From a virus, in IMG/VR virus record IMGVR_UViG_3300050821_002255, positions 1 through 34,925 of that record: DNA of 34,925 nucleotides. The stretch is one strand, 5' to 3'. Below, piece after piece: positions 8,988-30,517 of this stretch. Made by a program: the position numbers and the translations under genes. A model generated the notes under the pieces. That model worked only from the letters and a program-made list of their open reading frames with translations. It was not told where the DNA came from and ran no database searches. Every line of letters starts with the position of its first letter. Within the stretch, counting starts at the first letter, position 1.

Positions 8988-9021
8988 TTCTTTTTGTGTC
9001 GGAATTATAGTCGTCAAGAAT

Positions 9022-11159: not shown

Positions 11160-11170
11160 GAGGATAACCT

Positions 11171-11731
11171 ATGGCCGGAATTATTGAACTGACATCAGCG
11201 ATCGCAGGAAGTACAAATTATGCAGTCATCAATAATCCGTCTGGCCAGCGATGGAACGGTACTTCTTTTGAGTCGTTCAACGGGGCCAATTGGAGTGCTT
11301 ATGTGGTGGCTTTGACGGAAGACCGTTTCTCTGGAAATGGGACAGGGTATTATAAAGCTGTATTTCCTTTGACCATCCCAGCAGGTCGATATACCTTCAC
11401 ATTTTACCAGCAGGTGGGAGGTTCGCCAGCCCTAGGAGATCCGACGATTGGGAGTGGTGGTCCGATGTACTGGACAGGGACAGTTGAGGATCAAGGTTCA
11501 GCCATTACGGTGCTGGCTTTTTTCAATGCTACGATCATGAACGAGCTGACCTCACTTCCTTCTTCTACTCCTACACTATATCAGGCCATGATGTTGATGT
11601 ACATGAGTCTACGAAACCAACATCTGGCCACGGCTTCACAGGAATCTATTTGTAATGCGGCAGGCGCAAGCATTACGACAGCCCCATTGTCTGACAACGG
11701 AACCACTTACACAAAAGGATCTTTCGCGTGA
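11171..11731 (+). CDS. Virion-associated beta-rich protein
   Basis: 186 residues; GAGG precedes the ATG. The first 110 residues follow a pattern I know from many phage structural regions: a variable start, QRWNGTSFESFNGANWSAY, VALTED, GYYKAVFP, then YTFTFYQQVGGSPALGDP. The C-terminal 60 residues (AMMLMYMSLRNQ, then ICNAAGASIT and LSDNGTTYTKGSF) are a second commonly linked module. It is probably a tail or head surface component. It ends in a GTGA overlap with the next gene. Confidence 0.7.
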   Translation: MAGIIELTSAIAGSTNYAVINNPSGQRWNGTSFESFNGANWSAYVVALTEDRFSGNGTGYYKAVFPLTIPAGRYTFTFYQQVGGSPALGDPTIGSGGPMYWTGTVEDQGSAITVLAFFNATIMNELTSLPSSTPTLYQAMMLMYMSLRNQHLATASQESICNAAGASITTAPLSDNGTTYTKGSFA

Positions 11732-11961
11732 CATTGGAGCAACGAAGACAAGCCATCGATTTCGGAAAGATTCGCGGAACTGGGATGCCAGTCCCTCCGA
11801 TTGGCCTATTAACTGTTTCACAGAGGGCGCATGTAGTGAATGTCTATTACGAATCTCCAGCGCCTCCAGCACCATTCTTTTTCTGGAGAAATAGGAATCT
11901 GGTTTCGAGTTCTTGGGCCCCTAAAGTAACGCCACAAGACGGCAGTACACAGGTGATTTGA
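11728..11961 (+). CDS. Small hypothetical tail-region protein
   Basis: 77 residues with a GTG start in a GTGA overlap and a TGATG overlap at its end, so it is coupled on both sides. The N-terminus is charged (MTLEQRRQAIDFGKIRGTG) and the C-terminal part is Pro/Phe/Trp-rich (PAPPAPFFFWRNRN). No domain is recognised. Position between two virion genes suggests a small structural part. Confidence 0.65.
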   Translation: MTLEQRRQAIDFGKIRGTGMPVPPIGLLTVSQRAHVVNVYYESPAPPAPFFFWRNRNLVSSSWAPKVTPQDGSTQVI

Positions 11962-13496
11962 TGGGATATGCTGGAACACAATTCAGAATGCCACTAACGG
12001 ATACAGGATTTCGTGATGACCGGAATACTCAGTTGTTGCCTCCGACAGCCTTGTTGGTTCCTTCTTGCAATGTGAACTACCATGAGAATGGTCTTTCAAA
12101 GCGTGGAGGTACCGTGATTCAGGTGGTTGGAGGAGGACAACCAGGACAGGGCATGTTTCAGTTCCTAACCCCGACAATCCAGAAACTTGTATTCGTTTCG
12201 AATGGGGTTCTGTACAACACGAACTATTCTAACGTCCTTTTCTCCAGTTTTTCGAAGACCAACGCAGTGAATTTCTGTCAGACTTCAAAATATGTGTTCG
12301 CAGCAGACGGACAGGCAAATCCTCAATATTGGGATGGATCATCAGGATCTTCAAGCAATGTGACGCCAGCCGCTTCTTGGACAGGGAACATGCCAATCCA
12401 GATGGTAGTTCATACACGAGCTGGTTCAGGGGCTGGAGATAGGCTTTGGGCGGTGACGCCAGACGCGCTTTGGTATTCGAAACTCAATACTCCGACGGAC
12501 TTTCTTAACAGTGATGCAGGAACTATCCCGATTGATTCCATTGGAGGTCTTGTAGGTGCCTATGATTTGGGTGGGCAACTATTCGCATTCTCGAAAACTC
12601 AGACGTTCTTGATTCAAGACACCGATTCTTCGATAGCAAACTGGGGATATACCAATGCTCTTTGGGAAGGCGGGGTCGCTTCTTGGAGGCTGATTGATAA
12701 GGCCATGAACAATCTCTTTTTCATGGCTGAGGATGGACTGATTTACAATTTGTCTGGAGTGCTAACGACAGGAGCATACAATGCGGCTCCTCTTAACAGG
12801 CCAGCATTCGTAGATAAGTTCATTCGTGACAACGTTAATCTCGGTAATGTCCAGAATTTTCATGTGTCCTACGATCGGAAACTACGTGCCCTTAAATTCT
12901 TCATGCAGGAAGGTGGATCTGGAAACAATATCGCGTTGACTTACTTCATTGACAAACGCCCAGAGAGTGCCTGGATTGTCCACAACAACACCAATTTTAC
13001 TTCTGGATATAACGCTTCCTGTTCATGCGAAGTCAGAGTAGCAGCTGGGAATTATCAGGTTTGGACGATGGACTATACAGGCAACGTCTGGGGCCTTGAA
13101 CAGACTTCACGTGATGACGCAGGGAACGCTTATCCTGTTATTATCAACACCAAAGCTCAGGATTTGCAGATTCCTAGAAATAACAAACACTGGTTTGCGA
13201 TGGCATTGCGTGGCGATGCGTCGGGGACTGTCAATTTTACGATGTATCCGACGGTAGAAGGGCAGGCGCTGGCTTCGCAGACGTTTACGATGGGTGGCAC
13301 TGGTTCGGTGTTTAATACAGCGACATTCAACAATTCAACATTCGCGACGGACCTCATAACAACGGCTCCGGTTGGTCTTGGAGTTTATGGTAGAGACCTT
13401 CAACTTCAATTGATCGAAAACGAGGTGGGGGTAGACTTCTTTTTAGCCGAGCTCCTTTATATGGTCAAACCTCTTGGAATCAAGGTGGCGCAATGA
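11961..13496 (+). CDS. Tail nozzle or hub-like beta-propeller protein
   Basis: The ATG at 11961 (TGATG overlap) is preferred to an in-frame TTG at 11958. 511 residues, almost all beta, with blade-like repeats. The N-terminal region has the pattern of podovirus tail-nozzle and stabilisation proteins (SCNVNYHENGLSKRGGTVI near 34-52, VFAADGQANPQYWDG near 112), followed by strands such as RLWAVTPDALWYS and GQLFAFSKTQTFLI. It would close the tail tube. The family resemblance is moderate and the placement after the adaptor supports it. Confidence 0.65.
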   Translation: MGYAGTQFRMPLTDTGFRDDRNTQLLPPTALLVPSCNVNYHENGLSKRGGTVIQVVGGGQPGQGMFQFLTPTIQKLVFVSNGVLYNTNYSNVLFSSFSKTNAVNFCQTSKYVFAADGQANPQYWDGSSGSSSNVTPAASWTGNMPIQMVVHTRAGSGAGDRLWAVTPDALWYSKLNTPTDFLNSDAGTIPIDSIGGLVGAYDLGGQLFAFSKTQTFLIQDTDSSIANWGYTNALWEGGVASWRLIDKAMNNLFFMAEDGLIYNLSGVLTTGAYNAAPLNRPAFVDKFIRDNVNLGNVQNFHVSYDRKLRALKFFMQEGGSGNNIALTYFIDKRPESAWIVHNNTNFTSGYNASCSCEVRVAAGNYQVWTMDYTGNVWGLEQTSRDDAGNAYPVIINTKAQDLQIPRNNKHWFAMALRGDASGTVNFTMYPTVEGQALASQTFTMGGTGSVFNTATFNNSTFATDLITTAPVGLGVYGRDLQLQLIENEVGVDFFLAELLYMVKPLGIKVAQ

Positions 13497-13936
13497 CACC
13501 CTATTCGAAAGATTATATTGCTTCAGGAGACGTCTTCGCTGACGAGATGGTGTTCTGCATCCGTTGCGGGACGCAGACTATGGGTCTTGGATACAAAGAA
13601 ATGCCAAGCGTAAATGATCCGAAGAAGCTCGTGAATGTCGCTCATAAGAAACAGTTCGGGAATTATCGACAGATGCCAGTAGTTTTGTCTCGTCGAGGAC
13701 GAGAGAGTATCACGAGTTTGCCCTGCTGTCAGGAATGCGTAAAGGAAATTGATCCTTCTCGTGATACCGATTTACTCATTAAACAAATTAAGCGAGCGAT
13801 GCAGATTGAAGCGCGATATGTCGGAATGCCAGAGGAAGCGGTGGAAGCCATCTCGAAGGCGTGGGCTGACGCACGAATCGTTCGGAAATGCAATCCTGAA
13901 GAAGCGGCCACAGGCAGAATTATGGAGGCTGTATGA
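13493..13936 (+). CDS. Small protein with a Cys4 zinc-ribbon-like site
   Basis: 147 residues, starting in an ATGA overlap. CIRCG at about 22-26 and CCQEC at about 78-82 give a likely split four-Cys metal site. The C-terminal third is a charged helix (RAMQIEARYVGMPEEAVEAI). The next gene starts at its end with GGAGG inside the coding region. It is placed among tail genes; a structural or chaperone role is possible but not shown. Confidence 0.65.
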   Translation: MTPYSKDYIASGDVFADEMVFCIRCGTQTMGLGYKEMPSVNDPKKLVNVAHKKQFGNYRQMPVVLSRRGRESITSLPCCQECVKEIDPSRDTDLLIKQIKRAMQIEARYVGMPEEAVEAISKAWADARIVRKCNPEEAATGRIMEAV

Positions 13937-14868
13937 GTCAGGCGCAGTTCACGATCCCTCTCATCACTGTCATTCCTGGACAGTTGATCACAGCGGCTCT
14001 CTGGAATAATGAATTTGTGAATCTTCAGACCAATCTCAATCCTTCTGGGATTGGTGGGTACTCAGATACTGATACCCAGATGCAGATTCAGACGGCTCCA
14101 TATCCCGGGTCCGTGACCAGCCATGCGTCTAGTTTGGCTGGAGAATTGGAACGGGTTCGATACCAAATCAGCCAGATCTTAGGCCCGACAACTCCAGCGT
14201 TCTGGTATGCCGCTCCTCCAACAAACTTAACAGCATTGGCTGGTATTGCGCTTCCATTGGGAGCAGTAATTGACTATCACTCGGCCACTCCTCCAAACTC
14301 CAACTTTTTGTTGGCAAATGGACAGGCTATTGGACGAAGCGCTTTTGCGGGATTGAATGCTCTTTATAGCGCGGCTTCTTATCCATTTGGAAATGGTGAC
14401 GGATCGACCACCTTCAACCTTCCGAATTACACTGATCGGATGTCTATTACAGCTGGGAACCTTTATGCGCTGGCGGCAACAGGTGGTGCTGTCAATGCGA
14501 CTTTGGCGGCTAATCAGATTCCAACTTCGTCCCTTGGAGTTTCCGTAACTGATCCTGGTCATAATCATATCCAGAACGCGCATAGCCATGGAGTTACCGA
14601 TCCAGGACATACCCACCTTGAAAAAGGAGATACGACAGGTGGTGGTTCTGGTGCGGCAGTAAGTGGTAATTTTGGGTTTAGTGGAACAGATACGACCACA
14701 GGGAACACAACTGCTAGTGCAACAACAGGGGTCACGACAAACAATGCTACAGCGACAAATAACGCAAATACAACGGGTATTACAGCTTCTGTGACAGGGG
14801 GAGGATCAACACCAGTCCCTACATTACCTCCTTATATCGGTATGTACAAGATGATTCGAGTTCTATGA
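13933..14868 (+). CDS. Tail fibre with phage tail collar domain
   Basis: 311 residues. Residues about 105-175 match the phage tail collar domain (PF07484-like): LPLGAVIDYHSATPPNSNFL, then ANGQAIGRSAFAGL and GNGDGSTTFNLPNY. The next part has a His-rich stretch (DPGHNHIQNAHSHG, then DPGHTH, about 212-231) like the metal-binding HxH repeats of short tail fibres. The rest is Thr/Asn/Gly-rich and ends in VPTLPPYIGMYKMIRV, the typical collar-fibre terminus. It is likely a receptor-contact fibre. GGAGG precedes its ATG. Confidence 0.85.
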   Translation: MSQAQFTIPLITVIPGQLITAALWNNEFVNLQTNLNPSGIGGYSDTDTQMQIQTAPYPGSVTSHASSLAGELERVRYQISQILGPTTPAFWYAAPPTNLTALAGIALPLGAVIDYHSATPPNSNFLLANGQAIGRSAFAGLNALYSAASYPFGNGDGSTTFNLPNYTDRMSITAGNLYALAATGGAVNATLAANQIPTSSLGVSVTDPGHNHIQNAHSHGVTDPGHTHLEKGDTTGGGSGAAVSGNFGFSGTDTTTGNTTASATTGVTTNNATATNNANTTGITASVTGGGSTPVPTLPPYIGMYKMIRVL

Positions 14869-15167
14869 AAAAGATATTCGACGACGGCATTTTGGAAGCT
14901 ACTCTTTACGCGAATGGGTGGGTGTTTTGTCGATGGGTGAAAAACAAGCATGGGCGACTACAGAAGAAACTTATTAAGGACTTGAATTTGATCGAGACAT
15001 TCATATTTAAGTCAAAGCTCGTAGGATGGTTTACGGATTCGGAGTTGGTCCATACGGATTTTCATAAGTTACTTATTAAGTTTGGGGCTTTACCGAGAGA
15101 GATAAGCGGAGACTTTCAGCGGTTTATTAAGCCCATTTTGAAAGAAGGAGACCTTCATGTGCGGTAA
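14865..15167 (+). CDS. Small protein, possibly a degenerate GNAT-like fold
   Basis: 100 residues, ATGA-coupled to the collar fibre. The C-terminal half (GWFTDSELVHTDFHKLLIKF, then GALPREISGDFQRFIKPI) resembles the end of small phage GNAT-like proteins (H..LL.K.GA followed by a final strand), but no acetyl-CoA loop is visible. A fibre-associated assembly or modification role would fit its position. The frame overlaps the next gene by 11 bases. Confidence 0.55.
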   Translation: MKKIFDDGILEATLYANGWVFCRWVKNKHGRLQKKLIKDLNLIETFIFKSKLVGWFTDSELVHTDFHKLLIKFGALPREISGDFQRFIKPILKEGDLHVR

Positions 15168-16077
15168 TGCTCCATCTGCTCCTAATTTACCAAGTTACCC
15201 AGGTATGAGTTCTGGGCAACAACAGATTGTTGGTCAGCAGGCTGGAATTAATCAACAGTATGGAAATATTGTTGGGGGGGTAAGCCAACAATTAGGAGCA
15301 AATCAGAATATTCTCCAACAATTGAGTGGACTTTTTAATTCTGATGGAACAGTTAATCAAAATGCCGTTGCTCAACTTCAACAATTAGCGGGAGGACAAA
15401 CAGGAGCCGCCGGAACCGCTGGAACTTCTGCTTTGTCTGGTCTTGGTTCTACTCAGCAGGCTTTAGGTGCGACTTCGCAAGCATATCAAAATGCTTTGCA
15501 GGGAAATGTACCACAAAATCAGCAATTATCTTACCAGCAGAACCAAAATTTCCTTGCGACTCAGGAACAAGCTGCGCAGCAAGGAATTAAGATAACTGGA
15601 ACGAATTGGAATGATGCTGTTTCTGATTCTACAGCAGGTCAGAAATTGATTCAAAATCTACAGCAAAATAATAACATCCAAAACCAACAATATGCTTTGG
15701 GATATACAGGTCAACTGGCAGGAAATATGGGGCAACTTTCAGGAGCTTATGGAACTCAGGCTAATTCTGGAATGGGCTTATCTCAATATTCTCAGCAAAC
15801 TCCATTGAATTATCTTGGTCAGTCCATTACTCAAGGCCAATCTGCCTTAAGTCCTCTTTTGCAACAATATGGATCAAGTTTAACATCGGCTTATAATCCG
15901 TTATACACCCAACAGAACAATCAATATATGGCTCAGATGGGACAAGCACAAGGTCAATACCAAGGTGATATGAACCAATATAACGCCCAAAATCAGCAAT
16001 TATATGGCGGTATTGGTCTAGGGATGCAAGCGGCAGGAACAGGAATGGGAATCGCTAGTATGCTTGGAGCCTTCTAA
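15157..16077 (+). CDS. Gln/Asn-rich candidate internal virion (ejection) protein
   Basis: 306 residues starting MCGNAPSAPNLPSYPG, with AAGGAG before the ATG inside the upstream gene. It is very rich in Gln, Asn, Gly and Ala, with helical Gln-rich stretches (QQLGANQNILQQLSGLF) and a Gly/Met-rich C-terminus (GIGLGMQAAGTGMGIASMLG). An MCG start with such a body is common in phage ejection or virion-internal proteins placed after tail genes. A strong terminator follows at 16108. Confidence 0.6.
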   Translation: MCGNAPSAPNLPSYPGMSSGQQQIVGQQAGINQQYGNIVGGVSQQLGANQNILQQLSGLFNSDGTVNQNAVAQLQQLAGGQTGAAGTAGTSALSGLGSTQQALGATSQAYQNALQGNVPQNQQLSYQQNQNFLATQEQAAQQGIKITGTNWNDAVSDSTAGQKLIQNLQQNNNIQNQQYALGYTGQLAGNMGQLSGAYGTQANSGMGLSQYSQQTPLNYLGQSITQGQSALSPLLQQYGSSLTSAYNPLYTQQNNQYMAQMGQAQGQYQGDMNQYNAQNQQLYGGIGLGMQAAGTGMGIASMLGAF

Positions 16078-16107
16078 ATATGCTGAAGAAATCTTGCCCT
16101 TCTAACG

Positions 16108-16139
16108 CTCTGGCGGGTACAACCGCGCAGAGGTTTTTT
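16108..16139 (+). terminator. Rho-independent terminator
   Basis: CTCTG-GCGG at 16108-16116 pairs with CCGC-(G)-CAGAG at 16123-16132, a 9 bp stem with one bulged G and a GTACAA loop, followed by TTTTTT at 16134-16139. It lies between two ejection-protein candidates and would lower read-through from the tail genes. A sequence GATTATAT at about 16147 could be part of a promoter for the next gene, but no clear -35 box is seen. Confidence 0.8.
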
Positions 16140-16170
16140 ACTGATTTGATTATATCACAAGGAGCTAGTT

Positions 16171-17442
16171 ATGGCTGATTCGTCTCTTCCAATGGCGCAG
16201 ATCCCATCATTCTCTTTAGGTGCGACTCCAAACAATGCCCCATCTGTTGCAAATGCTATCCAAGGGATTCAAGGTGGTGGTCAACAAGCGATCCAGGCTA
16301 TGCAGTTTCAGCAACAACTCGCACAGCAGAAACAACAGCAGGCCATTGAAAAGAATATGAAGATGCTTGAGACGGGAAGCCAGATGATGCTTGAGGGGGG
16401 TCCAGAAGTTCAGCAGACTGGACAGGACTTGATCAAGCAATCATATCCGTTCCTGACAGGCCAACCATTACCAGATGGAATGCCGCTCGATAAGAACACA
16501 GCAAAAGATTTGGGATGGTACATGGATCAGCATAGGCAATGGCAACAGACAAATGGGAAGGAAGGGCTTTCGGCGCAAGATGCTGTTACAGGAGCAACAC
16601 AGGCTGTTGCACGGTATGGGATGAAATACCAGCAACAGCAGATGGGATTGCTCGAAAAGACTCCGATGTATAAGGAGGCGACTGCTACGCAGGAGCCCGG
16701 ACAGGTCAATGGTCAACCAGCGAATTTCAATCCACAAAGCGGTCAACCAACTGCGCAGGGGTCAGGCCAACCGATGCAAGGGAATTTTGTTCCGAATACG
16801 ACGCTTGCAACGATTCAGAATGAGAAAGCCCAATCTCTCAAGAGTACGTTTATGGAAGCATCTAAGGATTTCCAACAGATTGCTCCTGACTATCGGGATT
16901 TTTCAACGCTCATGGCTCAACCTATGCCAGCCGATCCATCGACCATGAGTCCACAGGACAAGCAAAACGCTGTTACGAACCAGAAAGCGGCTCTTTTGAA
17001 ATACGTCCAGCTTAACGTTCCAGCTAGTCGACGACCTCCGAATATGTCATCTCTCGAAACGATGGCGCAGGGTGGCGAACTTCCACAACAGGCTCAACAG
17101 GTTTACAATCAGTTGTTTCAAACTGGTACGCCATTAACAGGGAAGATGGTTAACGCGCTTCGCGCGACCGCGACCAAAACATATCTCTCAGCGGAAGCAC
17201 AACAGGCCCAGATCGAGAATTCATGGGCTCAGAACGCCAAGGCGAACGGGGTTGATCCTTCGACGGTCGTCCAGAACTTCCGGCCATCGACAGCGGCCAG
17301 CTCATCACAATTCTTTCCGTCACAGGGGCAGGCTCCTTTGCTTGGAAGTGTGGTCAATTTCAAAGGGAAAACAATGAACGGAAAGAAGATGCTTGTTGGA
17401 CATGATTCCCACAATCCTGATAACTGGGTAGAATCCGAATAA
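16171..17442 (+). CDS. Gln-rich candidate internal virion (ejection) protein
   Basis: 423 residues; AAGGAG lies before the ATG, directly behind a terminator. The N-terminal 60 residues are Gln-rich and helical (QQAIQAMQFQQQLAQQKQQQ). The middle is mixed helical and Pro/Gln linkers, and the C-terminus ends in a compact beta part (GSVVNFKGKTMNGKKMLVGH then NPDNWVESE). Size, composition and position next to a Gly-zipper protein fit podovirus ejection proteins that leave the head with the DNA. No enzymatic motif is seen. Confidence 0.6.
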   Translation: MADSSLPMAQIPSFSLGATPNNAPSVANAIQGIQGGGQQAIQAMQFQQQLAQQKQQQAIEKNMKMLETGSQMMLEGGPEVQQTGQDLIKQSYPFLTGQPLPDGMPLDKNTAKDLGWYMDQHRQWQQTNGKEGLSAQDAVTGATQAVARYGMKYQQQQMGLLEKTPMYKEATATQEPGQVNGQPANFNPQSGQPTAQGSGQPMQGNFVPNTTLATIQNEKAQSLKSTFMEASKDFQQIAPDYRDFSTLMAQPMPADPSTMSPQDKQNAVTNQKAALLKYVQLNVPASRRPPNMSSLETMAQGGELPQQAQQVYNQLFQTGTPLTGKMVNALRATATKTYLSAEAQQAQIENSWAQNAKANGVDPSTVVQNFRPSTAASSSQFFPSQGQAPLLGSVVNFKGKTMNGKKMLVGHDSHNPDNWVESE

Positions 17443-18920
17443 TGGATACAACGCCAACCATCGATTCGGACGCTTATTTCGCGAAAGCTCCTATCGTCAA
17501 TGATTCTGATACGGCGGTTGATTCGGATGTTTATTTTGGCCAACAACCACAATCTCAAGGTCAAGATTCTCTTAAACCTCAAGATTGGATTTCAAAGGTT
17601 TACCATCCAGCTATTTCAGGAGCGGCCATGACAATGGGAGGAGCCGCAGGCGCGATATTAGGAACAGCGGGAGAACCTGGACTTGGGACTGCTTTAGGTG
17701 GTTCCGCTGGTGCGGTGGCGATGTATCCTCCAGCTAACAATTTTGCCAATTCAATAGATGCGGCTCGCGGAATGCAATCGCCTACGTCAGATGGAGTTTT
17801 AGGAGACTTGAAAACAGGAGCAGAAATTGAGGCAGGTGGTAAAGTCTTGAGCGCGGCAATTGGCGCGGCGGCTCCAGCGGTTAAGAGTGCCATTGTCAAA
17901 AGCATTTCATCTGTTTTTGGGCCAAGTACAGATGCGATAAACGCATGGCTTGATAATCCATCATTGCCCAATGCTCCAGACGTTGTGGCATTAGCTCGAA
18001 AACTTCCACAGACTTTGAATAATTTGAAGGGTCTTATTTCACAGGCATCAGATCAGGCCGGAAAATTTCTTAGTACTTCAGCCGATCCAGCGGAAGGAGC
18101 TATCGCAAAATCAGATTTGATTAATCTCATTTCAAAAGAAAAAGGATCTCTTCTAACGGGGGGGCCTGTATCAGGACAGGTGATTGGGCCAGCGAATCAG
18201 GCGGCTGATGCTCATCTTGATGCGTTGATGCAATCGCTAGATCAAATACCAGGGGACTATTTGCCTCAAACTTCCGTCAAAAGCCTTATTAAAGCTGTCG
18301 ATAACAACATTAATTTTGCAGATAAAGGAGCATCAGCGACTAATACGGCATTGGCTAATTTCAGGAGTGGGGCAAACAAGATTCTTAAATCTGGAAATAC
18401 GGAATATTCTACAGCTATGCAAGAGATTAGCAAGATGATGGGAACACTCGAAGATACGCAAAGTCAGTTTGGAATTACGAACGAGATTGGTCAAGGACTT
18501 CAGCCGACGGATCGAACGATTACGGCTTTGAACGGTATAAACAAAGCTACGAAATCTATTTCTCAGGATACTTTGAATGATCTCTCAAAATTGACTGGTG
18601 ATGATTATGTTGCAGACGCTCAGAATGCGAAATGGGCGCAGGAATTTAAAACGGGATCAGCGCAAGGATCACGGCGTGTTAATTTGGGGGCTCTTGTAGG
18701 TGCGCCTGTTGGGGCTGGCGTGGGTGCTTTAACAGGTCATGCAACGGCAGGAACGATGGTAGGAGAAGCATTGGGTGCTGGAACAGGTGCTTTGGCTGAT
18801 AAATTTGGGGGTCCAATGGCGGCATCTATTAGCAGACTATTACAACAGCTTTCACAGCATTTACCAGCGGATTTGGCGTCTAAGATTGTGGCGAGCGCTT
18901 TTGCTCCACAAAGCCAATGA
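17442..18920 (+). CDS. Gly-zipper candidate internal virion (ejection/channel) protein
   Basis: 492 residues, coupled by TAATG. Two short acidic repeats mark the N-terminus (IDSDAYF near 7 and VDSDVYF near 26). Residues about 58-95 and 413-450 are Gly/Ala-zipper stretches (GGAAGAILGTAGEPGLGTAL; LVGAPVGAGVGALTG) that could insert in a membrane as a channel. The middle is helical. Such proteins in short-tailed phages form the trans-envelope conduit for DNA. The assignment is by composition and position. Confidence 0.6.
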   Translation: MDTTPTIDSDAYFAKAPIVNDSDTAVDSDVYFGQQPQSQGQDSLKPQDWISKVYHPAISGAAMTMGGAAGAILGTAGEPGLGTALGGSAGAVAMYPPANNFANSIDAARGMQSPTSDGVLGDLKTGAEIEAGGKVLSAAIGAAAPAVKSAIVKSISSVFGPSTDAINAWLDNPSLPNAPDVVALARKLPQTLNNLKGLISQASDQAGKFLSTSADPAEGAIAKSDLINLISKEKGSLLTGGPVSGQVIGPANQAADAHLDALMQSLDQIPGDYLPQTSVKSLIKAVDNNINFADKGASATNTALANFRSGANKILKSGNTEYSTAMQEISKMMGTLEDTQSQFGITNEIGQGLQPTDRTITALNGINKATKSISQDTLNDLSKLTGDDYVADAQNAKWAQEFKTGSAQGSRRVNLGALVGAPVGAGVGALTGHATAGTMVGEALGAGTGALADKFGGPMAASISRLLQQLSQHLPADLASKIVASAFAPQSQ

Positions 18921-19642: not shown

Positions 19643-21748
19643 GTGAAAAACTTATTGAGAGCTTTCGGGCTCATTTTAGGAATAGGTGCGCCTCTTTTTG
19701 CGGCTCCTTCAAGTCCTCCAGCCGGGAACTATATTCAGAATGTTAGCACTAATGCGAGTGTTCAAGTTTTTAAGGTTACAAGCGGAACAGTTACCAACCT
19801 GACTATTACTGGTACTTGCAGTGGGGCTGGATGCGGGACGGGTGGTGGGGGTGGATTGGTTTCACCTGGGACATTTACATGGACAAACAATTTCGGGACA
19901 TCAGTTTCTACAGTCACAGCCACCATTTATTCGTCTGCTCCTGTGGTCAATGTTTCGACAATAACAAATTATCCGAACTCTGCTATGACATTCCAACTTT
20001 ATAATGGGATCGGAGTTAGCAATTCTTTATCATTAACAGACAATTTTAGTAACGGAACCATTCTTACTTTTGGTGCGAAAGCCAATACGTTTACAAACAT
20101 TGAAAATTCAGATGGGATAAGTAGCGGGAATGGACAGACGGGAGATTCCGTCTTTTTAGGTCAACCTTTTGGAGCCGGGCCGGTATATTCAGGGTTTCAC
20201 GTTATTGCGCGGAACGTTTCAAACGATAAATATGCTTTATCTGTAGATACTGATCCAATCAACGGGATAGAGTATTTATCTGTTTCAACCAATGGAGTGG
20301 TTAATGTTCCGTTAGTTCTCACACTGGCTACGGCGACATTCTCAGGACAGGGTAATGCTTCGATTACGGAAGGAAACGGAACGGCAGGACAGATAGTTAT
20401 TTCTACAGCTGGAGCAGGAGTGACAGTGGGGCATTGTGCTCAGTTCGGGTCGTCTATGACAATTGTCGACGCAGGAGCTTCGTGCGGGACTGGAGGAGGA
20501 GGAGGGACACCTGGGGCACCTGTTAACTCTGTTCAATACAATAGCGCCTCTGCGTTTGCCGGATCAAACAATTTCCAGTTCAACGGAACCAGCGTAACGG
20601 TGCAAGGCAGTTCCGTCACGATCAAAGGTGCGTCTGGCGGCGCGTCTCTAAACACGGTTGGCTTATTGGATGTTTATCAGGAAGGCGCATATGGAGGATC
20701 TAATTCATCGCTTGTGTCAGCGGGTTCCAGTAACCAGGCCGATCAGTTCGATATTTACGATCAAAAATATGTGGCGGCCTATTATGGCTACAAAACGTTT
20801 GGACTTCTAATCGACACAAACCGAGATGGAGCCATTGAGTCCGTTAACAGTATTCAGAGCAAACTGAACCTTTGGAACAATGGCGAAGTAGACATCCAGA
20901 GCGCATCGACGGCCAATGGCGGGGCGAATATTGTCTTAATGCCGAATACTGTTCCGGAGGTCGTGGTATCAAGTCTCGGGGTGACGGTAAGCACGATTGC
21001 CACTATAGCCAGTCTTAACATTTCGTCAAACACGACAGCGACGCAAACAATCAATATCAGCAGTGCCGGGGTGACAGCGAGTTCAAATACCATGGTCATA
21101 AAAGGTTTTCATGCGATCACAGTTCAATCTTTCCTTAGTGGCTCCGGAACCTACACGACTCCTGCTGGCGTGCAATGGATTCGCGTGAGGATGGTCGGAG
21201 GTGGAGCAGGCGGAAGTGGTGGCGGTGTAGGTGCTGGGACAAATCCGACCCAAGGGAGTTCTACAACTTTGGCGAATGGGGTTATTATTTCAACGGCTGG
21301 TGGAGGACAGATTGGTTTATGGACAGCTCCCGGTGGCACAGGTGGATCGTCTATTCTTTCTAACGGAATGATTGGAATGGCTTTATCTGGTGGAAGCGGA
21401 GGAGGATCGGGTGCCGCTACAACAGTCAATACGGCTGGTGGCCAAGGTGGATCTTCCGCATTGGGTGGAGCTGGTGGAGCTGGAAATGTTGGCACGGCGG
21501 CTCTTAACGGTGCCACGAATACTGGTGGTGGTGGTGGTGGTGGCGTTGCAGGAGGGACTGGCGGAACTACTGGCGGATCAGGAGGCGGCGCGGGAGGATT
21601 CATAGATGCGATTATCAATGCCCCGGCAGCATCCTATACCTATTCCGTTGGAGGTGGTGGCAATGCTGGGGGTGCCGGGACAAACGGAGCGGCAGGGGGT
21701 GCTGGCGGGTCAGGAGCGATCTGGGTTGAGGAGCACTACACAAATTAA
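19643..21748 (+). CDS. Exported Gly-rich adhesin or fibre, signal peptide 1 of 4
   Basis: 701 residues with a GTG start behind GGAGG (19633-19637). Residues 1-20 form a Sec signal peptide: basic MKNLLR, a hydrophobic core, and an LFA|AP cleavage site. The body is beta-rich with modules in which two Cys precede Gly runs (TCSGAGCGTGGGGG near 57; CAQF...CGTGGGGG near 267) followed by NSVQYNSASAFAGSNNF, a common tail-fibre motif. From about residue 498 (GTYTTPAGVQWIRVRMVGGG) to the end it is a Gly-rich domain like the polyglycine receptor-binding parts of phage adhesins. An ATG at 19641 is followed at once by a TGA that overlaps the GTG. A signal peptide on a phage fibre is unusual. Confidence 0.8.
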   Translation: MKNLLRAFGLILGIGAPLFAAPSSPPAGNYIQNVSTNASVQVFKVTSGTVTNLTITGTCSGAGCGTGGGGGLVSPGTFTWTNNFGTSVSTVTATIYSSAPVVNVSTITNYPNSAMTFQLYNGIGVSNSLSLTDNFSNGTILTFGAKANTFTNIENSDGISSGNGQTGDSVFLGQPFGAGPVYSGFHVIARNVSNDKYALSVDTDPINGIEYLSVSTNGVVNVPLVLTLATATFSGQGNASITEGNGTAGQIVISTAGAGVTVGHCAQFGSSMTIVDAGASCGTGGGGGTPGAPVNSVQYNSASAFAGSNNFQFNGTSVTVQGSSVTIKGASGGASLNTVGLLDVYQEGAYGGSNSSLVSAGSSNQADQFDIYDQKYVAAYYGYKTFGLLIDTNRDGAIESVNSIQSKLNLWNNGEVDIQSASTANGGANIVLMPNTVPEVVVSSLGVTVSTIATIASLNISSNTTATQTINISSAGVTASSNTMVIKGFHAITVQSFLSGSGTYTTPAGVQWIRVRMVGGGAGGSGGGVGAGTNPTQGSSTTLANGVIISTAGGGQIGLWTAPGGTGGSSILSNGMIGMALSGGSGGGSGAATTVNTAGGQGGSSALGGAGGAGNVGTAALNGATNTGGGGGGGVAGGTGGTTGGSGGGAGGFIDAIINAPAASYTYSVGGGGNAGGAGTNGAAGGAGGSGAIWVEEHYTN

Positions 21749-21790
21749 TGCTGATCTGGGAATTCCGAGAGCTTGTGTTGGTTTAACTTA

Positions 21791-24700
21791 ATGAAATGGA
21801 AAATAATTCTCGCTCTTTTGATTGGTACTTCGGCATGGGCTGAACAATGCCAAATCACATCTCCTCTTCCAGTTCCTGTTTCAATTTCAGGATGTACGTT
21901 TAGCGGAAATCTTCCAGGTGGATCAACATCTTATATTCAGAACACACTGAGTCCAACAACCACCACTCAGGCGTTCAGCATTCAATACAGTTCCACTTCT
22001 GGAGCCCAATATCTTCCATATATTACTGGAACCCAATGCCTTCATGAAGTGAATGGGCAGACACTAGGAACAGGATCAGATTGCGGATCAGGAGGAGGCG
22101 GGGGAGTGGCTGGTCTTCCTGTGTGGATTTCGTCTGGATCGGTAGCTTACGAAACGACGGTTTCCAGCCCGAACTATAATACCGTCTATGATTCAAATAC
22201 GCTGATCGTTAATTTGCTTGCTTCCGGAACTGCTCAAATTCTTGTATCGACGACTGGACTCTCTGCTACATTTCTGACCAATTCTAGTGCGGCAATTACG
22301 TATCAGCCAGTTGGTAGCTATTTAACAACATCCTCAGCGACGGCAACCTATTTGCAACAATCCAGCGCCTCATTGACATATCAATATAAAGGGAATTATC
22401 TTACGGGTCGGCCTTTCCCGGTTTCTATATCCTCTGGATCTTCAACAAATTCCGTTGCGATATCGAGCCCGACTGATAATGTCATTTTTGATTCAAATAC
22501 ATTTGTCGGAACTCTTCAAGGAACAACCAGTTCCTATATATCGCTTGGGTCATCCGTTACAAAACAGGGTGTTATTACTGCCGCGAGTTTGGGGGCCTTA
22601 ACAGCCAACCAGAGTATTACATGGACTGGATCAGGAGATACTACGGGTTCTGCTTCAGGCACAACATCCATTTCGCCAGTTCTGACAGCGGCGGCCACTC
22701 AGCCGAATATCGTAACGCTTTCAGCATCGAGTACGACTATCCAAGGGGCTTCCGGACTATCTGTCAAGAATTATGAAATTGTGGCAGGAAGTCTCAATGT
22801 TACTGGCGCAGGAGGTATTAACGTTACGTTTGGCGTAAACGCCAGTACTGTTGTCGCCAGCACAGGAACTTTCACTTATGTTTCAGGATCAACGATCAGC
22901 TATTCCAGTGCGACATTGACCAACCTATCGCTTTCGACGATTCAAGGGGTAACGCCCGGACTCGTCGCTGGAACCAATATCACGTCGATTACGGGAACGT
23001 GGCCGAATCAAACGATCAATGCCGCGACTCAGAGCAGTGGAGGTGGAGGAGGTTCAATTGTCAATGTGTCGAACCAATTCAATACGCCGTACTATTCTGC
23101 AACGGGATCTTCGAATACGTTATCGGGTCTTGGGAACTTTACGAATAACGGTACGACCATTACGATTGTCAGTACCGTAACAACGATCGGAAGTATCGGG
23201 ACCATCACCGAAACAAATGTGACCACTCAGACGGCTTCCGGTGTCTATTTCAACAATACCAGCAGTACCATGACGATCTCCAGCATGTCTGTCACGAACT
23301 TTTCCGCGATCGGGGCTGGCAATATAACCATTCCTTCCCCGGTAACGATTTCCACGCTATCAATTACCAACGGAGCCGTGATTCCATCGAACAGCCAGAA
23401 CTTTGGGAAGTCCACACTAAACCAATGGTTTTCACAGATGGCAACAAACCAGAGCCAAACTGCTCCTGCTAAAAATAACAAGTTGAGTTTCTTTGTTCTA
23501 GGTGATTCTCATATGGCTCAGAATTACATCATGAGCCCATTCACTGATTGGCTTTATTCGAATTTTGGCAATGCGGGAACCTATGTCCCTCTTTCGAATT
23601 TCAGTCAAGCGTCTCCAGATCGTCGTCCAAACGGGTGTACTTATTCGATTCTCGGGAGTACCTGGGTGACAGCACCACAAGCCAGCACGTCGTTAGGCTT
23701 AGACGACGACACCCTTCATAGCAGTACGTCTGCCGCCACAGCCGTTGTCACGTGTCCCGGATCAGATCAAGTCACGTTGCACTATGAAGTTCAGCCCAAT
23801 GGAGGAACCGTTTCATTGAGTGTGGATGGCGGAGCTCAACATGCTATTTCCACGGCAGGAGGAAGTGTCACAGTGGCTTCCATCACGGTTACAGGATTAG
23901 CGTATGGTGTCCACGAGGCCTCAGTGACGTATACGACGGTTGGAACGGCGGGCATTGATGTTCTCGACCTTGTTTTTTTCTCATCGAACACTCCGGGAGC
24001 CGTCATGTATCGTGTCGGGACCTATAGCATGCAGTTGGCTCAATATAACGCTCAAGATCCCGTCCAATACGAAAAACTGCTCGGGATGCTTCCAAGTACT
24101 CCGACCGTCGTCATGTTTGAATTCGGGATAAACGAAGAAGCAAACAATGTGAATCCGGCAACGATGATTGCCAATGCTCATACAGAGATGGCTCGATTCC
24201 GGACTGTCTATCCGAATGCAGACTGCGTTTATTTCTCGCCTCCAGTCAGTAATGTTGACGGGAATTTCACTTATCCGCTAAGTGCTTACGAAATGGCATG
24301 GGCGAGTGCGGCGGTCGTCGATCAATGCGCTCTCGTTGACTTTACCGCCTATTTTTCATCGGAGCCTTATTTCTCACAATATTATTCCGACGGAATTCAT
24401 TTGAATCAGGCAGGCGGTCTGGTCGCTGGAAACACAATGATTAATATGTTTTCGAATGTTCCTGGAAATCTATCTCCGTTTACATACAACGTATCGAGCG
24501 CGGCGATCTCTTACGGAAACGACCAGAGTACGAACGCGCTCAGCAACGTGACATCGTTTGGAAGTGGCATCGTTATTTCGTCCGGAATTACCAATTCGGG
24601 CGTCATTGGAAACAATCTCAATTTGTCGAGCAGTAACGTATTCATGATCGGCGGTTTGCCGGGATCTGGGAAAGAACAGAACTTAACAGTCTCCACGATT

Positions 24701-25486
24701 ACCGTCGCCGCCATTAATGCCAGCGGGAAAGTGTATATCTCCTCAAATGTTTTTATCGTCGGAGGTGGTACATTGACCGTCTCAACGAACACCGCTTTCG
24801 GAAGCAATTCGACGACGATGACCGTCACAGGCGGAATTATCAATACAGCTTTGACAGCCAGTCTTCCTGTTCAGACGGATGCCAATCAGCAACTTATTTC
24901 GTCAGCGATTAATCTTTCAGGGAGTCAAGTCTCTAATACGCTTGCGGCGGCGCGATTCGGTACATTAGCAGGCGATGTAACGACAGCAGGAGGATCTTAC
25001 AACACGACCGCGGCGGCGAATCAGGCGAATATTAAAACGTTGAGTAATGCGTCCAGTACGACCGTGGCATCTCCCGGATTTGCTGTAACGGTGGGCTCAA
25101 CTACTTTGACGGATACCAGCATTACGGATAAATTTATTCTCCGTATTGGAACGGGGGCTGTTTCGGGTTCTTATGCTGTAGCCATATCAACAACAGACCA
25201 TCTGAATTTTGAAGTGTTCAATTCATCGCCCGTCTTGAGTTCATGCGGAACAGGGCCAACGATTATCGGGAGTGATAACGCTTTCGAGATAACACCGGGA
25301 GCTACTGCCGCAGGGTGTACGGCTACATTCGGAAAGGCCTATATCAATCCGCCGATATGTACTGTGACGGAGCAGACATTCAGTTTAACGAACGCGCTGA
25401 GTTATACCATCACAGCAACCGCGATCACTATGACGGAAACGTCATTGACATCAAAACTTGATGTTAATTGTTTCGGGAGAGACTGA
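21791..25486 (+). CDS. Exported fibre with SGNH hydrolase domain, signal peptide 2 of 4
   Basis: The start is the ATG at 21791 (an in-frame start 18 bases upstream spoils the signal peptide). 1231 residues. Residues 1-17 end in SAWA|EQ, a good signal peptidase I site. The N-terminal half is Ser/Thr-rich fibre sequence with repeats (AITYQPVGSYLT, SLTYQYKGNYLT, CGSGGGGG). The enzyme part has block I GDSH with the nucleophile Ser573, block III GINE with Asn781, and DGIH with Asp867 and His870, so the full SGNH set is present. A beta-sandwich insertion (about 640-720) sits between block I and III. It probably de-esterifies surface glycans. The C-terminal 300 residues are fibre-like. No clear ribosome site precedes it. 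Confidence 0.85.
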   Translation: MKWKIILALLIGTSAWAEQCQITSPLPVPVSISGCTFSGNLPGGSTSYIQNTLSPTTTTQAFSIQYSSTSGAQYLPYITGTQCLHEVNGQTLGTGSDCGSGGGGGVAGLPVWISSGSVAYETTVSSPNYNTVYDSNTLIVNLLASGTAQILVSTTGLSATFLTNSSAAITYQPVGSYLTTSSATATYLQQSSASLTYQYKGNYLTGRPFPVSISSGSSTNSVAISSPTDNVIFDSNTFVGTLQGTTSSYISLGSSVTKQGVITAASLGALTANQSITWTGSGDTTGSASGTTSISPVLTAAATQPNIVTLSASSTTIQGASGLSVKNYEIVAGSLNVTGAGGINVTFGVNASTVVASTGTFTYVSGSTISYSSATLTNLSLSTIQGVTPGLVAGTNITSITGTWPNQTINAATQSSGGGGGSIVNVSNQFNTPYYSATGSSNTLSGLGNFTNNGTTITIVSTVTTIGSIGTITETNVTTQTASGVYFNNTSSTMTISSMSVTNFSAIGAGNITIPSPVTISTLSITNGAVIPSNSQNFGKSTLNQWFSQMATNQSQTAPAKNNKLSFFVLGDSHMAQNYIMSPFTDWLYSNFGNAGTYVPLSNFSQASPDRRPNGCTYSILGSTWVTAPQASTSLGLDDDTLHSSTSAATAVVTCPGSDQVTLHYEVQPNGGTVSLSVDGGAQHAISTAGGSVTVASITVTGLAYGVHEASVTYTTVGTAGIDVLDLVFFSSNTPGAVMYRVGTYSMQLAQYNAQDPVQYEKLLGMLPSTPTVVMFEFGINEEANNVNPATMIANAHTEMARFRTVYPNADCVYFSPPVSNVDGNFTYPLSAYEMAWASAAVVDQCALVDFTAYFSSEPYFSQYYSDGIHLNQAGGLVAGNTMINMFSNVPGNLSPFTYNVSSAAISYGNDQSTNALSNVTSFGSGIVISSGITNSGVIGNNLNLSSSNVFMIGGLPGSGKEQNLTVSTITVAAINASGKVYISSNVFIVGGGTLTVSTNTAFGSNSTTMTVTGGIINTALTASLPVQTDANQQLISSAINLSGSQVSNTLAAARFGTLAGDVTTAGGSYNTTAAANQANIKTLSNASSTTVASPGFAVTVGSTTLTDTSITDKFILRIGTGAVSGSYAVAISTTDHLNFEVFNSSPVLSSCGTGPTIIGSDNAFEITPGATAAGCTATFGKAYINPPICTVTEQTFSLTNALSYTITATAITMTETSLTSKLDVNCFGRD

Positions 25487-26220
25487 TGAAGAAAATCTGT
25501 TTGTTATTATTGCTGGCATCTCCTTGTCTGGCGGGGACGATCACGACCAATTTCAGCCCTATTGGAACGCTTACTTTTTCAACCGGTACCGTCCCTATAC
25601 TATTGACGACTCATACATTTGCAGGAAGTTCCAATACAAACAGTATCACGACTCCAGGGATCAATACGGTCGGTTCATCATTGATTGTTGTGATTGTCTC
25701 CACTTACACCCTTCAGACTTCGGGAACAGGCTTATCGGATTCTCTAAGTAATACATGGATTGGATTGAACACTTACGCTAATAGCAACCTCAACGAAGTC
25801 ACGATGTTCTATGCGGCCAATCCCACCACAGGAGCCGCGCAGACGTTTACTATCAATTCTGGGGCCGGATATCCAGCATTGGCAGTCTTAGCATTCAGCG
25901 GAACACCTGCTGCACCTTTTGATTCTCAGAATGGAGGCGTTACGGCAAGTGCTACGACCCTTCAACCTGGCAACGTGACACCTTCAGTGGATAACGAATT
26001 GATTGTGACGGGTTTAAGCCTTGGCGGAACAGGAGTAGCATCCATTAATTCCGGGTTTACCATCACGGACCAGATCGCTCAGAATGGGGCCTCTAATTAT
26101 GGAGTGGCGGGAGCTTACATTATCAAAGGATTTGGTACTTCAGGATTTGGTGTGAATCCGACATGGACGAATAGTGGATCTGCCACCAGTTTAGCTTCTG
26201 ACATTACGGTATTTAAATGA
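25486..26220 (+). CDS. Exported beta-sandwich adhesin, signal peptide 3 of 4
   Basis: 244 residues from the ATG at 25486 (TGATG overlap, GGGAGA before it). Residues 1-16 are a signal peptide (MKKICLLLLLASPCLA|GT). The Cys at 14 does not form a proper lipobox. The mature part is one domain with a pattern I know from secreted bacterial and metagenomic phage proteins: NSITTPGINTVGSSLIVVIV, then SDSLSNTWIGL, MFYAANPTTGAAQTFTI and LAVLAFSG. Its function is probably binding. It ends in an ATGA overlap with the next gene. Confidence 0.75.
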   Translation: MKKICLLLLLASPCLAGTITTNFSPIGTLTFSTGTVPILLTTHTFAGSSNTNSITTPGINTVGSSLIVVIVSTYTLQTSGTGLSDSLSNTWIGLNTYANSNLNEVTMFYAANPTTGAAQTFTINSGAGYPALAVLAFSGTPAAPFDSQNGGVTASATTLQPGNVTPSVDNELIVTGLSLGGTGVASINSGFTITDQIAQNGASNYGVAGAYIIKGFGTSGFGVNPTWTNSGSATSLASDITVFK

Positions 26221-28496
26221 GAAAAATACTCCTACTTATTTTATTTCCAACCTTCTCGTTTGGGTTTGGTCTTCCTCAGTTGGCTCATCTTCATGATGAT
26301 TTTACGCCTGGAGTCACTACTTATCTGGCCATAGGATCAGGAGCATTAATAGCTGAAAATATCGAATCGTTGGCTCAGATCCCCTATTATTATTCAGGAA
26401 CTATGTCGAAATTATGGGTAAACATCCCGATTAACTCTTTGACTTCTATTTCAACCTGTACGATGCGGATCAATGGGATGAATGGAAATGAAGTAGTCAA
26501 AATCGGTGCAGGGGCTACAGGAACGTTTACCGACAATACTCATACCGACACAATTCCTTTTAACGCGCTTGTTGATGCTCAATGCGCTATTGGAAAGACA
26601 GGAACATCATTTCGGATACAAGGAGTTATGACTCAATTTGTTCCAGACATTCCCGTCTATGCAATGAAATGGATGGCTGGTACATGGCCCATTCCTTTTA
26701 CGGGGACTGGCCAGACTAATGGATTTGCCGATTTCTACGAAGTTCCTATTGGTCTTCAGGGAAACGGAGCCGGTCAATGGGCAAATCAGACCGAATCCAA
26801 TGTTTATTATCTAATGCATTCATCAGGGACATTCCTTAATATGACCATCAATGTTTCTTCCAACACAAGAAGCGTGACAATTCCATTCAACTTTCGTAAG
26901 AATGGAGTCAATCAAATGACGATCAACGTGGTGGCCAACTCAACAGGGATTTATACTGACGCCGTTGATTCAGTGCATGTAGTGGCAGGAGATACAGTGA
27001 CATACAGCATCGGAACTAGCGCGGGAAGTGACGGAAACCTGATTGCGTCTACTTATTTGTCCACAGATTTTATTTCTGACAGTAACGCCATTGAGCTTGG
27101 GGAAGGGTTCTCGGGTGGTCATCAGAACAGTGCTGGTGGCAATCAACAGATGCCCTATATGTCCTGCAACTCTTGGGGGGGTAACGAATATCTTACGCCA
27201 GCTTATGCCGCTGGAACGATTGGAAATCAAAGTGTTTATGTCTTATCGAACACTCTATCGGGGACTTCTGTTTTCAATCTCAATAAAAACGGGACGGCTC
27301 TGAATGGGAATATAACGATTCCCGTTGGAGTTTCTGGCACTGTTAAAGGAACGGGCTCCGATTCGATTTCTGTGGGCGACTTGATTGATTATACACAAGT
27401 GGCTCAAGCAGGCACAGGAAGCGCAAACTTTGCAACGTTTGGGTCTGTTTTGACAACAACAACAACAGCAAGAACTCCTTCTGATCCGATTTTGATTCCT
27501 GTGTTTCCGACTGATAATGTCTGGGATGCGAGGATAGATACGCTGACCGTTTCTTCATCAAACACGGTCTGGATGAGCAACGCCCAGACGACCCATAACA
27601 TCTCCGTATTTGTTGGGACTACGTATGGAAATGAATGGCTTGGATTGCCCTATAATCTTATTTGCGGGGGTGTAACTCCTAATGTCCCAGTCAGTTGGGC
27701 TCCAGGCAACTTCTCGAATCAATCCGACACCATCCCTGTCGCAGGCCTTCCTATCCCTTCCGATGCTATCGAGGAAGGCGATCCTGCCAGTTTGAAACCA
27801 GCAGGGTTTGATTATCACTTGATCCTTGTCGACACATGCACTCCGCGTCTGTATGAAATGTATATTGCTTCACGAACCATCGTTAACGGAAACTGGAATG
27901 GGCAATGGAACATTATTCAGTTATCGACATGGCAGTTGACATCAGATGCCCTTCGTCCTGATACATGGACATCCGCTGATGCGGCAGGTCTTCCGATATT
28001 GCCGGGATTGTTACGATGGGATGAAGTTCAGACAGCCATTGCCAACGGAACAATGGTAGTTCCTCATGCATTGCGGTTCACTTTAGCTCTTACATATGGT
28101 CCTCATATCTGGCCAGCACGTCATGATGCTAATACGGGGTCTCCGGGATACCCACCCTTCGGAATGCGAGTACGATTGCAGTCTACTTATAACGTTTCTG
28201 GGTATTCGACGATCAATCAGGTGATTCTCAATACACTTAAGAAATATGGAATGTTTATGGCCGATAACGGTACGGCATGGCAGATTGCAGGAGCTCCAAA
28301 TTCAAACTGGAATGATTCGGATCTTCATAACTTGACAAATCTGACGGGAGCTAATTTCGAGGTGGTTAATGAAGATGGTTTGATGGTTAGCTCAAATACG
28401 ATGCAAGTCAATGGGTATGTTCCACCTATACCCAATCCAGCTCCAAAAATATGGACTGGTAAATTTACAGTTATTGGTGGGGGTTCCACTTATTAA
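26217..28496 (+). CDS. Exported adhesin with a bacterial secreted-protein domain, signal peptide 4 of 4
   Basis: 759 residues. Residues 1-16 (MRKILLLILFPTFSFG) look like a signal peptide. The first 420 are beta-rich repeats of an adhesin type (repeats with FNLNKNG and FRKNGVNQM blocks). Residues about 434-735 match a domain I know from secreted proteins of many soil and water bacteria: WLGLPYNLI, FDYHLILVDTC, SADAAGLPILPGLLRWDEV (about 585), HALRFTLA, WPARHDA, FGMRVRLQS, LKKYGMFMADNGTAWQIAGA. It appears acquired from bacteria and fused to phage repeats. The domain's activity is not known to me. It is ATGA-coupled to the gene before. Confidence 0.75.
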   Translation: MRKILLLILFPTFSFGFGLPQLAHLHDDFTPGVTTYLAIGSGALIAENIESLAQIPYYYSGTMSKLWVNIPINSLTSISTCTMRINGMNGNEVVKIGAGATGTFTDNTHTDTIPFNALVDAQCAIGKTGTSFRIQGVMTQFVPDIPVYAMKWMAGTWPIPFTGTGQTNGFADFYEVPIGLQGNGAGQWANQTESNVYYLMHSSGTFLNMTINVSSNTRSVTIPFNFRKNGVNQMTINVVANSTGIYTDAVDSVHVVAGDTVTYSIGTSAGSDGNLIASTYLSTDFISDSNAIELGEGFSGGHQNSAGGNQQMPYMSCNSWGGNEYLTPAYAAGTIGNQSVYVLSNTLSGTSVFNLNKNGTALNGNITIPVGVSGTVKGTGSDSISVGDLIDYTQVAQAGTGSANFATFGSVLTTTTTARTPSDPILIPVFPTDNVWDARIDTLTVSSSNTVWMSNAQTTHNISVFVGTTYGNEWLGLPYNLICGGVTPNVPVSWAPGNFSNQSDTIPVAGLPIPSDAIEEGDPASLKPAGFDYHLILVDTCTPRLYEMYIASRTIVNGNWNGQWNIIQLSTWQLTSDALRPDTWTSADAAGLPILPGLLRWDEVQTAIANGTMVVPHALRFTLALTYGPHIWPARHDANTGSPGYPPFGMRVRLQSTYNVSGYSTINQVILNTLKKYGMFMADNGTAWQIAGAPNSNWNDSDLHNLTNLTGANFEVVNEDGLMVSSNTMQVNGYVPPIPNPAPKIWTGKFTVIGGGSTY

Positions 28497-29853: not shown

Positions 29854-29948
29854 TGTTTAAAATCATCGAAATTATAGGAGCAGGATTGGTTATTGGAATC
29901 CTAGCTTGGCTTGTATTCTGGCATTACTCGGGAGGAGACCCGCAATGA
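29853..29948 (+). CDS. One-helix membrane peptide (31 residues)
   Basis: TGATG overlap at the start and ATGA overlap at the end. The product MFKIIEIIGAGLVIGILAWL... has one membrane helix and a short polar end (HYSGGDPQ). GGGAGGAG inside its 3' end is the ribosome site of the next gene. Together with the preceding peptide it may form a pair. Function unknown. Confidence 0.6.
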   Translation: MFKIIEIIGAGLVIGILAWLVFWHYSGGDPQ

Positions 29949-30517
29949 AAAACAGGATTCTATGGGTTTTGATCTTTGTCGCGATTGGCGTCTGTTTCTA
30001 TGGCGCAGAACGGGCATTTGCTGATAATGTTCAAGTTGATCTTCCGTATGGGATCGGGTCTATCCAGCTTCCTTGGCAGGCTACCGAGATCGTGACGGGT
30101 CTTATGAAACCCATCAAGGGTGGGGGGGCTGAATGGATCACAGGAGCGTCATTGCCCATCGTTACGCTCGGGCGGTTGTCGGACGGGTATAGGATCATTG
30201 ATGGCTCTATTGGCGGGATCTTTGCGGTGCCGAATTCCGGGGCTACGCCTGATGCTTATGGTGGCCTTGGGCATGATCTGATTCAGGACATCCCGGGTCT
30301 TAAACAGTTCAGCAGTGCTCATCTGAACGTAGGCACAAGCTACTCTAATGCCGCGCACGGGTGGTTATGGGGTGGGACTGTCAGTTATGCCTTCTGGGCG
30401 AGTCCTACCGTCACTCTGCCACAACCTACAGTGACTACGGCAGTCCAGACACCTGTTCCTACTGCCCCCCCACCTCCGCCTTCGACAACAATCCCTGCTC
30501 CGGAGCCTGTTCCGTGA
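29945..30517 (+). CDS. Exported, outer-membrane-barrel-like protein
   Basis: The start is the ATG at 29945 (GGAGGAG before it). 190 residues. Residues 1-26 are a signal peptide ending AFA|DN. The mature part alternates polar and hydrophobic residues (VDLPYGIGSIQLPW, GASLPIVTLGRLSDGYRIID, HLNVGTSYS) and reaches GWLWGGTVSYAFW near 138-150, like the last strand of a small outer-membrane barrel. A Pro/Thr/Val-rich tail of about 40 residues follows, which is odd for a barrel. It could alter the host surface or help in lysis. Family not recognised. Confidence 0.65.
   Translation: MKNRILWVLIFVAIGVCFYGAERAFADNVQVDLPYGIGSIQLPWQATEIVTGLMKPIKGGGAEWITGASLPIVTLGRLSDGYRIIDGSIGGIFAVPNSGATPDAYGGLGHDLIQDIPGLKQFSSAHLNVGTSYSNAAHGWLWGGTVSYAFWASPTVTLPQPTVTTAVQTPVPTAPPPPPSTTIPAPEPVP

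Follow-up and report, generated by a model that had tools for sequence, protein, structure and literature searches.

Virion assembly in tailed phages is cytoplasmic, and their fibers are normally regarded as products of the cytoplasm. Coat proteins of filamentous phages are virion proteins that cross the inner membrane via Sec/YidC and are assembled there, and inoviruses extrude through the envelope. Signal peptides (SPs) of phages have been discussed for proteins of the lysis kind (PMC3765740; PMC7504290). Bacteria export proteins that resemble phage fibers. The mosaic adhesive trimeric (MAT) proteins of Bdellovibrio bacteriovorus are bacterium-encoded, phage-fiber-like trimers that begin with an SP and are displayed on predator surfaces or located in a vesicle; all 21 share an N-terminal beta domain of ∼130 amino acids (aa) after the SP (PMC10769870). 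A preliminary description of the locus analyzed here knew of no described system like it. This stands for phage-encoded systems, as the literature searched (mostly open-access journal papers) held no report of SP-bearing phage fibers, but MATs are a bacterial precedent (PMC10769870).

The window, which is the whole stretch of DNA analyzed (34,925 nucleotides), is a 34.9-kb IMG/VR virus fragment of a podovirus (IMGVR_UViG_3300050821_002255; table 1). Its head protein is a distant relative, at 40% identity or less, of the head proteins of LUZ24-like phages and Pelagibacter phages. Within the late operon, four large genes (genes 1–4; 19643–28496) come after those for internal virion proteins, where T7-like maps have the tail-fiber gene. 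A glycosyltransferase gene (phrog_7162; 9073–10251) lies between head and tail genes and is kept in relatives. The window also has two repeat-rich regions on the minus strand: ∼40 CTCCCG hexamers at 33531–33768 within an ORF, where the encoded repeat is rich in E/R/Q/L, and a gene at 32606–33442 whose C-terminal half has Ala/Ser/Trp-rich tandem repeats (AAWSAESA...; 32675–32908).

Table 1. Coordinates of features in the window.
Feature	Position	Strand	Details
Gene shortly upstream of terminase, 5'-truncated	2..1354	+	All homologs have an SP
Packaging, head, tail, and internal-virion block (podovirus)	2453..18920	+	SP in none of its genes
Terminase	2453	+	Podovirus late block
Portal	4336	+	Podovirus late block
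Major head protein	7724	+	phrog_1328, E 5e-80
Tail	11958	+	Podovirus late block
Collar-domain tail fiber without SP (contrast gene)	13933..14868	+	PF07484 E 1.3e-8; phrog_8469 tail fiber
Internal-virion-type proteins	15157–18920	+	Podovirus late block
Gene 1, SP fiber-like, 701 aa	19643..21748	+	SP 19643–19702; GTG start with GGAGG in front
Gene 2, SP fiber-like, 1231 aa from ATG 21791	21791..25486	+	SP 21791–21841; fiber repeats
Putative SGNH/GDSL hydrolase domain within gene 2 (approximate bounds)	23486..24460	+	GDS aa 571–573, DGIH aa 867–870
Gene 3, SP gene, 244 aa from ATG 25486	25486..26220	+	SP 25486–25533
Gene 4, SP gene, 759 aa, ATG 26217	26217..28496	+	SP 26217–26264 or –26270
Fifth SP gene, 190 aa, AFA-DN cleavage site	29945..30517	+	Lysis region, outside fiber cluster

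We scored SPs with a home-made, rule-based scorer that looks for a basic n-region, an uncharged hydrophobic 8-mer, and small residues at −3/−1, and that recovered nine of nine textbook E. coli SPs. As the preliminary description had claimed, four consecutive large genes each encode a Sec SP: all four ORFs are found, and their N-termini look like good Sec/signal peptidase I (SPase I) SPs, with a basic n-region, an h-region of ∼7–15 residues, small residues at −3/−1, and no lipobox Cys at +1. When the first 41 residues of genes 1–4 were shuffled, the real score was reached in 1.6%, 0%, 0.16%, and 0.6% of cases, respectively. SPs are specific to this class of genes. Across the window and relatives, 13 of 14 genes of the fiber locus and seven of seven homologs of the gene upstream of terminase were positive versus 0 of 134 conserved core virion genes and 11 of 268 other genes; in the fourteenth fiber-locus gene, G005_8843, there is an SP at a GTG within the gene. 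The corresponding Fisher p of 9e-18 is only a guide because the sequences are related and genes were grouped by position after the data had been seen.

The predicted SP of gene 1 is MKNLLRAFGLILGIGAPLFA, followed by APSS, and the predicted mature protein starts with APSSPPAGNYI. A Gly-rich receptor domain had been described among the four proteins; in gene 1, a Gly-rich C-terminal tip is visible in the sequence, but there is no Pfam match. In genes 2 and 3, the frame opens at a TTG (21773 and 25468, respectively), but the first SP codon is the ATG that comes next, making ATG 21791 and ATG 25486 the better starts. The predicted SP of gene 2 is MKWKIILALLIGTSAWA, followed by EQCQ. Gene 2 also encodes the putative SGNH hydrolase that had been described among the fiber genes: the catalytic motifs GDS (GDSH), GxN (GIN), and DxxH (DGIH) can all be read in its sequence, and its match to PF13472 (E 4.2e-7, 31.1 bits) is slightly under the Pfam cutoff of 32.9. 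For gene 3, the predicted SP is MKKICLLLLLASPCLA, followed by GTIT, and homologs with SPs are present in contigs L205 and G307 (the same as L014). Gene 3 was also considered as a lipoprotein, which was rejected as there is no lipobox in the region ASPC-LA. The predicted SP of gene 4 is MRKILLLILFPTFSFG, with or without a further FG, followed by LPQ. Its body has a beta-rich N-terminal part and then a C-terminal domain (27507–28493) whose family has members in 45 of 294 Planctomycetota genomes, consistent with the secreted bacterial domain described previously, and also in other phages; one of these, L222, encodes a relative of the domain in a protein without an SP. A scan of viral contigs with gene 4 gave no confirmed match. 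An AlphaFold2 model of the C-terminal domain (A5; pLDDT 51) was too low in confidence for use and had no Foldseek match, and a second model (A4; pLDDT 48) was likewise too low. Profile searches of genes 1–4 recognized none of the known fiber domains (Collar, S74, attachment module), and PDB sequence searches returned no significant match. Outside the fiber cluster, the product of the fifth SP gene has a predicted cleavage site between AFA and DNVQVDLPYGIGSI and a homolog with an SP (G005 15928, reverse-complement coordinates); it is a predicted phage-encoded exported protein, possibly of the outer membrane.

Related phages keep the signals, a check that the preliminary description had proposed. 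A scan with the head protein identified eleven related virus contigs, of which six were analyzed in full together with a 38-kb Phycisphaerales MAG contig. The fiber loci of G004, G005, G007, G008, and G012 have one to three SP genes each. In alignments, all seven relatives that include the gene upstream of terminase have an SP at the same place; because all its homologs have SPs, the truncated copy is the probable sixth SP gene of the window. Alignment also shows that the mature N-terminus of gene 1, PPAGNYxxNxSTxA, is kept across six phages, the window and five relatives, and a scan with this motif found these same phages and no others. SPs are conserved even though the bodies of the proteins have strongly diverged. 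The third SP gene of one relative has a GH123 N-terminal domain and another has DUF2341. Relatives of the head protein are also present in MAGs of Phycisphaerales (74% identity) and Micrarchaeota (46%), on contigs L110 and L111, which are probably phage contigs binned into these MAGs. In the rest of the Phycisphaerales MAG and 293 further Planctomycetota genomes, the N-terminal module is absent except for two weak repeat matches in ORFs without SPs. The use of a home-made scorer and the presence in bacteria of the family of the gene 4 C-terminal domain could suggest an artifact, in which secreted genes of a host were misassembled or misbinned into the contig or SPs were called by chance. We consider this highly improbable, as gene order and SPs are repeated in several independently assembled contigs, the SP genes are continuous with those of terminase, portal, and head, and false rates in shuffles and core genes are low.

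If the SPs work, mature proteins should fold in an oxidizing place and have paired Cys residues. Across 22 phage contigs, 55 proteins with an SP were set against 170 from the same phages that have none. Among proteins with at least two Cys, the count is even in 43 of 49 with an SP versus 43 of 100 without, and after merging homologs, in 33 of 39 (p 1.4e-5) versus 31 of 61. The SP proteins of 20 of 21 contigs mostly have even counts. Cys spacing in SP proteins has a median of 15 residues versus ∼30 in shuffles or random placement, and Cys density is 0.87 per 100 aa in SP fibers versus 0.32 in ordinary fibers. In the window, gene 1, with four mature Cys as two close pairs (59/64 and 265/281), and gene 2, with 12 that are for the most part in close pairs, fit the pattern. 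In contrast, mature Cys are absent from gene 3 and odd in number (five) in gene 4, which counts against the explanation favored below. Overall, mature SP proteins have the Cys pairing expected of an oxidizing compartment, which supports real export. The hydrophobic N-termini could instead be uncleaved anchors by which the proteins are fixed in the tail or capsid while still in the cytoplasm, given that fibers are normally cytoplasmic and that isolates with related head proteins assemble fibers without SPs. But the h-regions are short, the residues at −3/−1 are small, the sites resemble those of SPase I, and such N-termini are found in 0 of 134 other virion genes. The bias to even and paired Cys, which points to an oxidizing compartment, is also unlike that expected for a cytoplasmic tail anchor or a chance hydrophobic start. 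The anchor explanation is therefore improbable, and true export with oxidative folding of the SP proteins is very probable.

SP-bearing fibers are not confined to this lineage. Two sets of fiber-bearing viral contigs, both confirmed by tblastn, served as controls; one was collected by the gene 2 repeat module and the other by the very common fiber motif FWRGDGT. In the repeat-module set, three of 74 complete ORFs scored as having an SP and a fourth was recognized by eye (L013, the same gene as that of G008). In the FWRGDGT set, 13 of 82 ORFs scored and two more (L127 and L205) were recognized by eye, giving 13–15 of 82. Unrelated phages, among them L014, L225, L154, L164, L165, L180, and L205, have adjacent SP fiber genes in runs, and the sets of L014 and L225 include homologs of genes 3 and 4. 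Glycosyltransferase-like genes, identified by reading, are immediately 5' of the sets in these two contigs (L014:5255–5968 and L225:246–902), and a link between such genes and glycosylated Ser/Thr-rich fibers is possible. The isolates phiM5, HTVC106P, and ppBeUSDA76-2, which have related head proteins, and Methylophilales phage Venkman have no SP on their fibers. Because SP fibers recur in unrelated contigs while most fibers and the isolates checked are without one, we regard the SP as a recurrent minority state of phage fibers. In another lineage (phrog_212), contig L017 has two short SP-bearing virion-like proteins right after the head protein gene (11844–12323 and 12343–12795), so small head-region proteins can have SPs as well. 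Searches of INPHARED by tblastn with gene 1, the pre-terminase protein of a relative, and two L017 SP proteins gave no match, and we found neither an isolate with SP fibers nor a virion proteome of such a phage. The core of the earlier suggestion, that the locus encodes exported host-contact or glycan-modifying proteins, is supported by conserved SPs, Cys pairing, and SGNH or GH123-type domains, but the locus is not an oddity of one phage because SP fiber genes recur in many uncultured phages.

Hints as to whether exported products join virions come from what follows the SPs, most clearly in L154. There, the SP directly precedes a module that starts at residues 1–5 of tailspikes or fibers in isolated phages of Rhodoferax, Pseudomonas, Xanthomonas, and others, and a Collar domain as found in phages (PF07484 E 4e-11) is recognized in the same protein (L154:16877); together, these argue for retained virion attachment. 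An SP fiber of L164 (L164:9152) has a subthreshold S74 chaperone domain. In these two cases, it looks like an SP was added onto ordinary virion fibers. The opening motif of the first SP fiber of L014 has weak similarity to the beginning of the phiM5 fiber, a protein that the phiM5 record gives as present in the particle proteome. For genes 1–4 themselves, the case for virion fibers is weaker because no fiber domain was recognized and a Collar fiber without an SP is present. The main alternative is that the products are exported and never on virions, acting instead on the surface of the infected host or, once released, as free adhesins or enzymes. They might, for instance, trim glycans of the host or its neighbors, block receptors against superinfection, or aid progeny release. 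Evidence for export, namely SP specificity and Cys pairing, is identical under this explanation; SGNH and GH123-type domains are what glycan enzymes acting freely might have, the separate Collar fiber is kept, bacteria commonly encode the gene 4 C-terminal domain, and MATs, which combine an SP with phage-fiber architecture, are on the cell surface (PMC10769870). Conversely, the genes are at the tail-fiber position of a virion operon, their adjacent fiber-like products of 240–1250 aa resemble a receptor-binding set, and an SP ahead of a tail-attachment module and Collar domain, as in L154, would be pointless for a free enzyme. We view action away from virions as possible but somewhat doubtful.

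We favor a scheme in which the products complete the particle after export. Genes 1–4, the fifth SP gene, and the gene upstream of terminase would yield Sec precursors late in infection that are cut by signal peptidase I. The mature proteins would then fold with disulfide bonds in the host periplasm, as predicted by SPs of the Gram-negative type. The products would be modular, trimeric-fiber-like adhesins, some with domains active on glycans, among them the putative SGNH hydrolase. They may wait outside the cytoplasm until, at lysis, virions from the cytoplasm meet the contents of the periplasm, upon which they would dock onto tails or heads. Translocation, cleavage, trimerization, and docking are steps that we infer. 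Because virions are assembled in the cytoplasm, docking requires an additional step, which counts against it. So do the Collar fiber, which could be the real tail fiber of the window, and the display of bacterial MATs of like architecture on surfaces rather than in virions. We consider the whole proposal, from export and oxidative folding to attachment to virions at lysis or later, to be evenly balanced. Its generalization, in which a recurrent class of tailed phages finishes virions extracytoplasmically with Sec-exported, periplasm-oxidized fibers and glycan enzymes docked at lysis, is more tentative and falls a little short of even.

The recurrence of a conserved Sec signal with Cys pairing implies that some phages either finish particles extracytoplasmically or dress or attack the surface of the host during infection. 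Both readings bear on receptor recognition, superinfection, the choice of compartment when receptor-binding proteins are expressed in the laboratory, and the origin of bacterial exported tail-fiber-like adhesins such as MATs. The combination of an SP and an even number of Cys can be used by annotation pipelines to flag the class.

Relative to known systems, the locus resembles podovirus fibers and tailspikes (of the kind of T7 gp17 and P22 gp9, and those of LUZ24-like phiM5) in its position after internal virion proteins, in low-charge repeats rich in Ser/Thr/Gly/Asn, and in glycan-active domains; phiM5 has an SGNH hydrolase whose annotation notes detection in the proteome of the particle. It differs in that the podovirus fibers checked have no SP and ordinary non-SP fibers have few Cys, whereas those of SP proteins are more numerous and even in number. 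Like SAR endolysins and Rz1 spanins, the products are predicted to use the host Sec system, but those lysis proteins are small, are uncleaved SAR proteins or lipoproteins, and are not fibers. Filamentous phage coat proteins offer a parallel as virion components that are translocated across the inner membrane, but the phages here are tailed and have cytoplasmic heads. MATs, the closest known system, share with the SP proteins a large, modular, exported form in which an SP is followed by tail-fiber-like, beta-rich shafts and varied adhesive tips. Here, tandem gene sets with SGNH or GH123-type domains are located in the virion operons of phages. By analogy, the phage SP proteins may act like an exported fiber; the likeness is one of an SP and a fiber-like body. 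For this reason, and because they are encoded by phages, we do not assign these proteins to the MATs. Exported phage-fiber-like proteins of bacteria nonetheless provide a precedent for this architecture.
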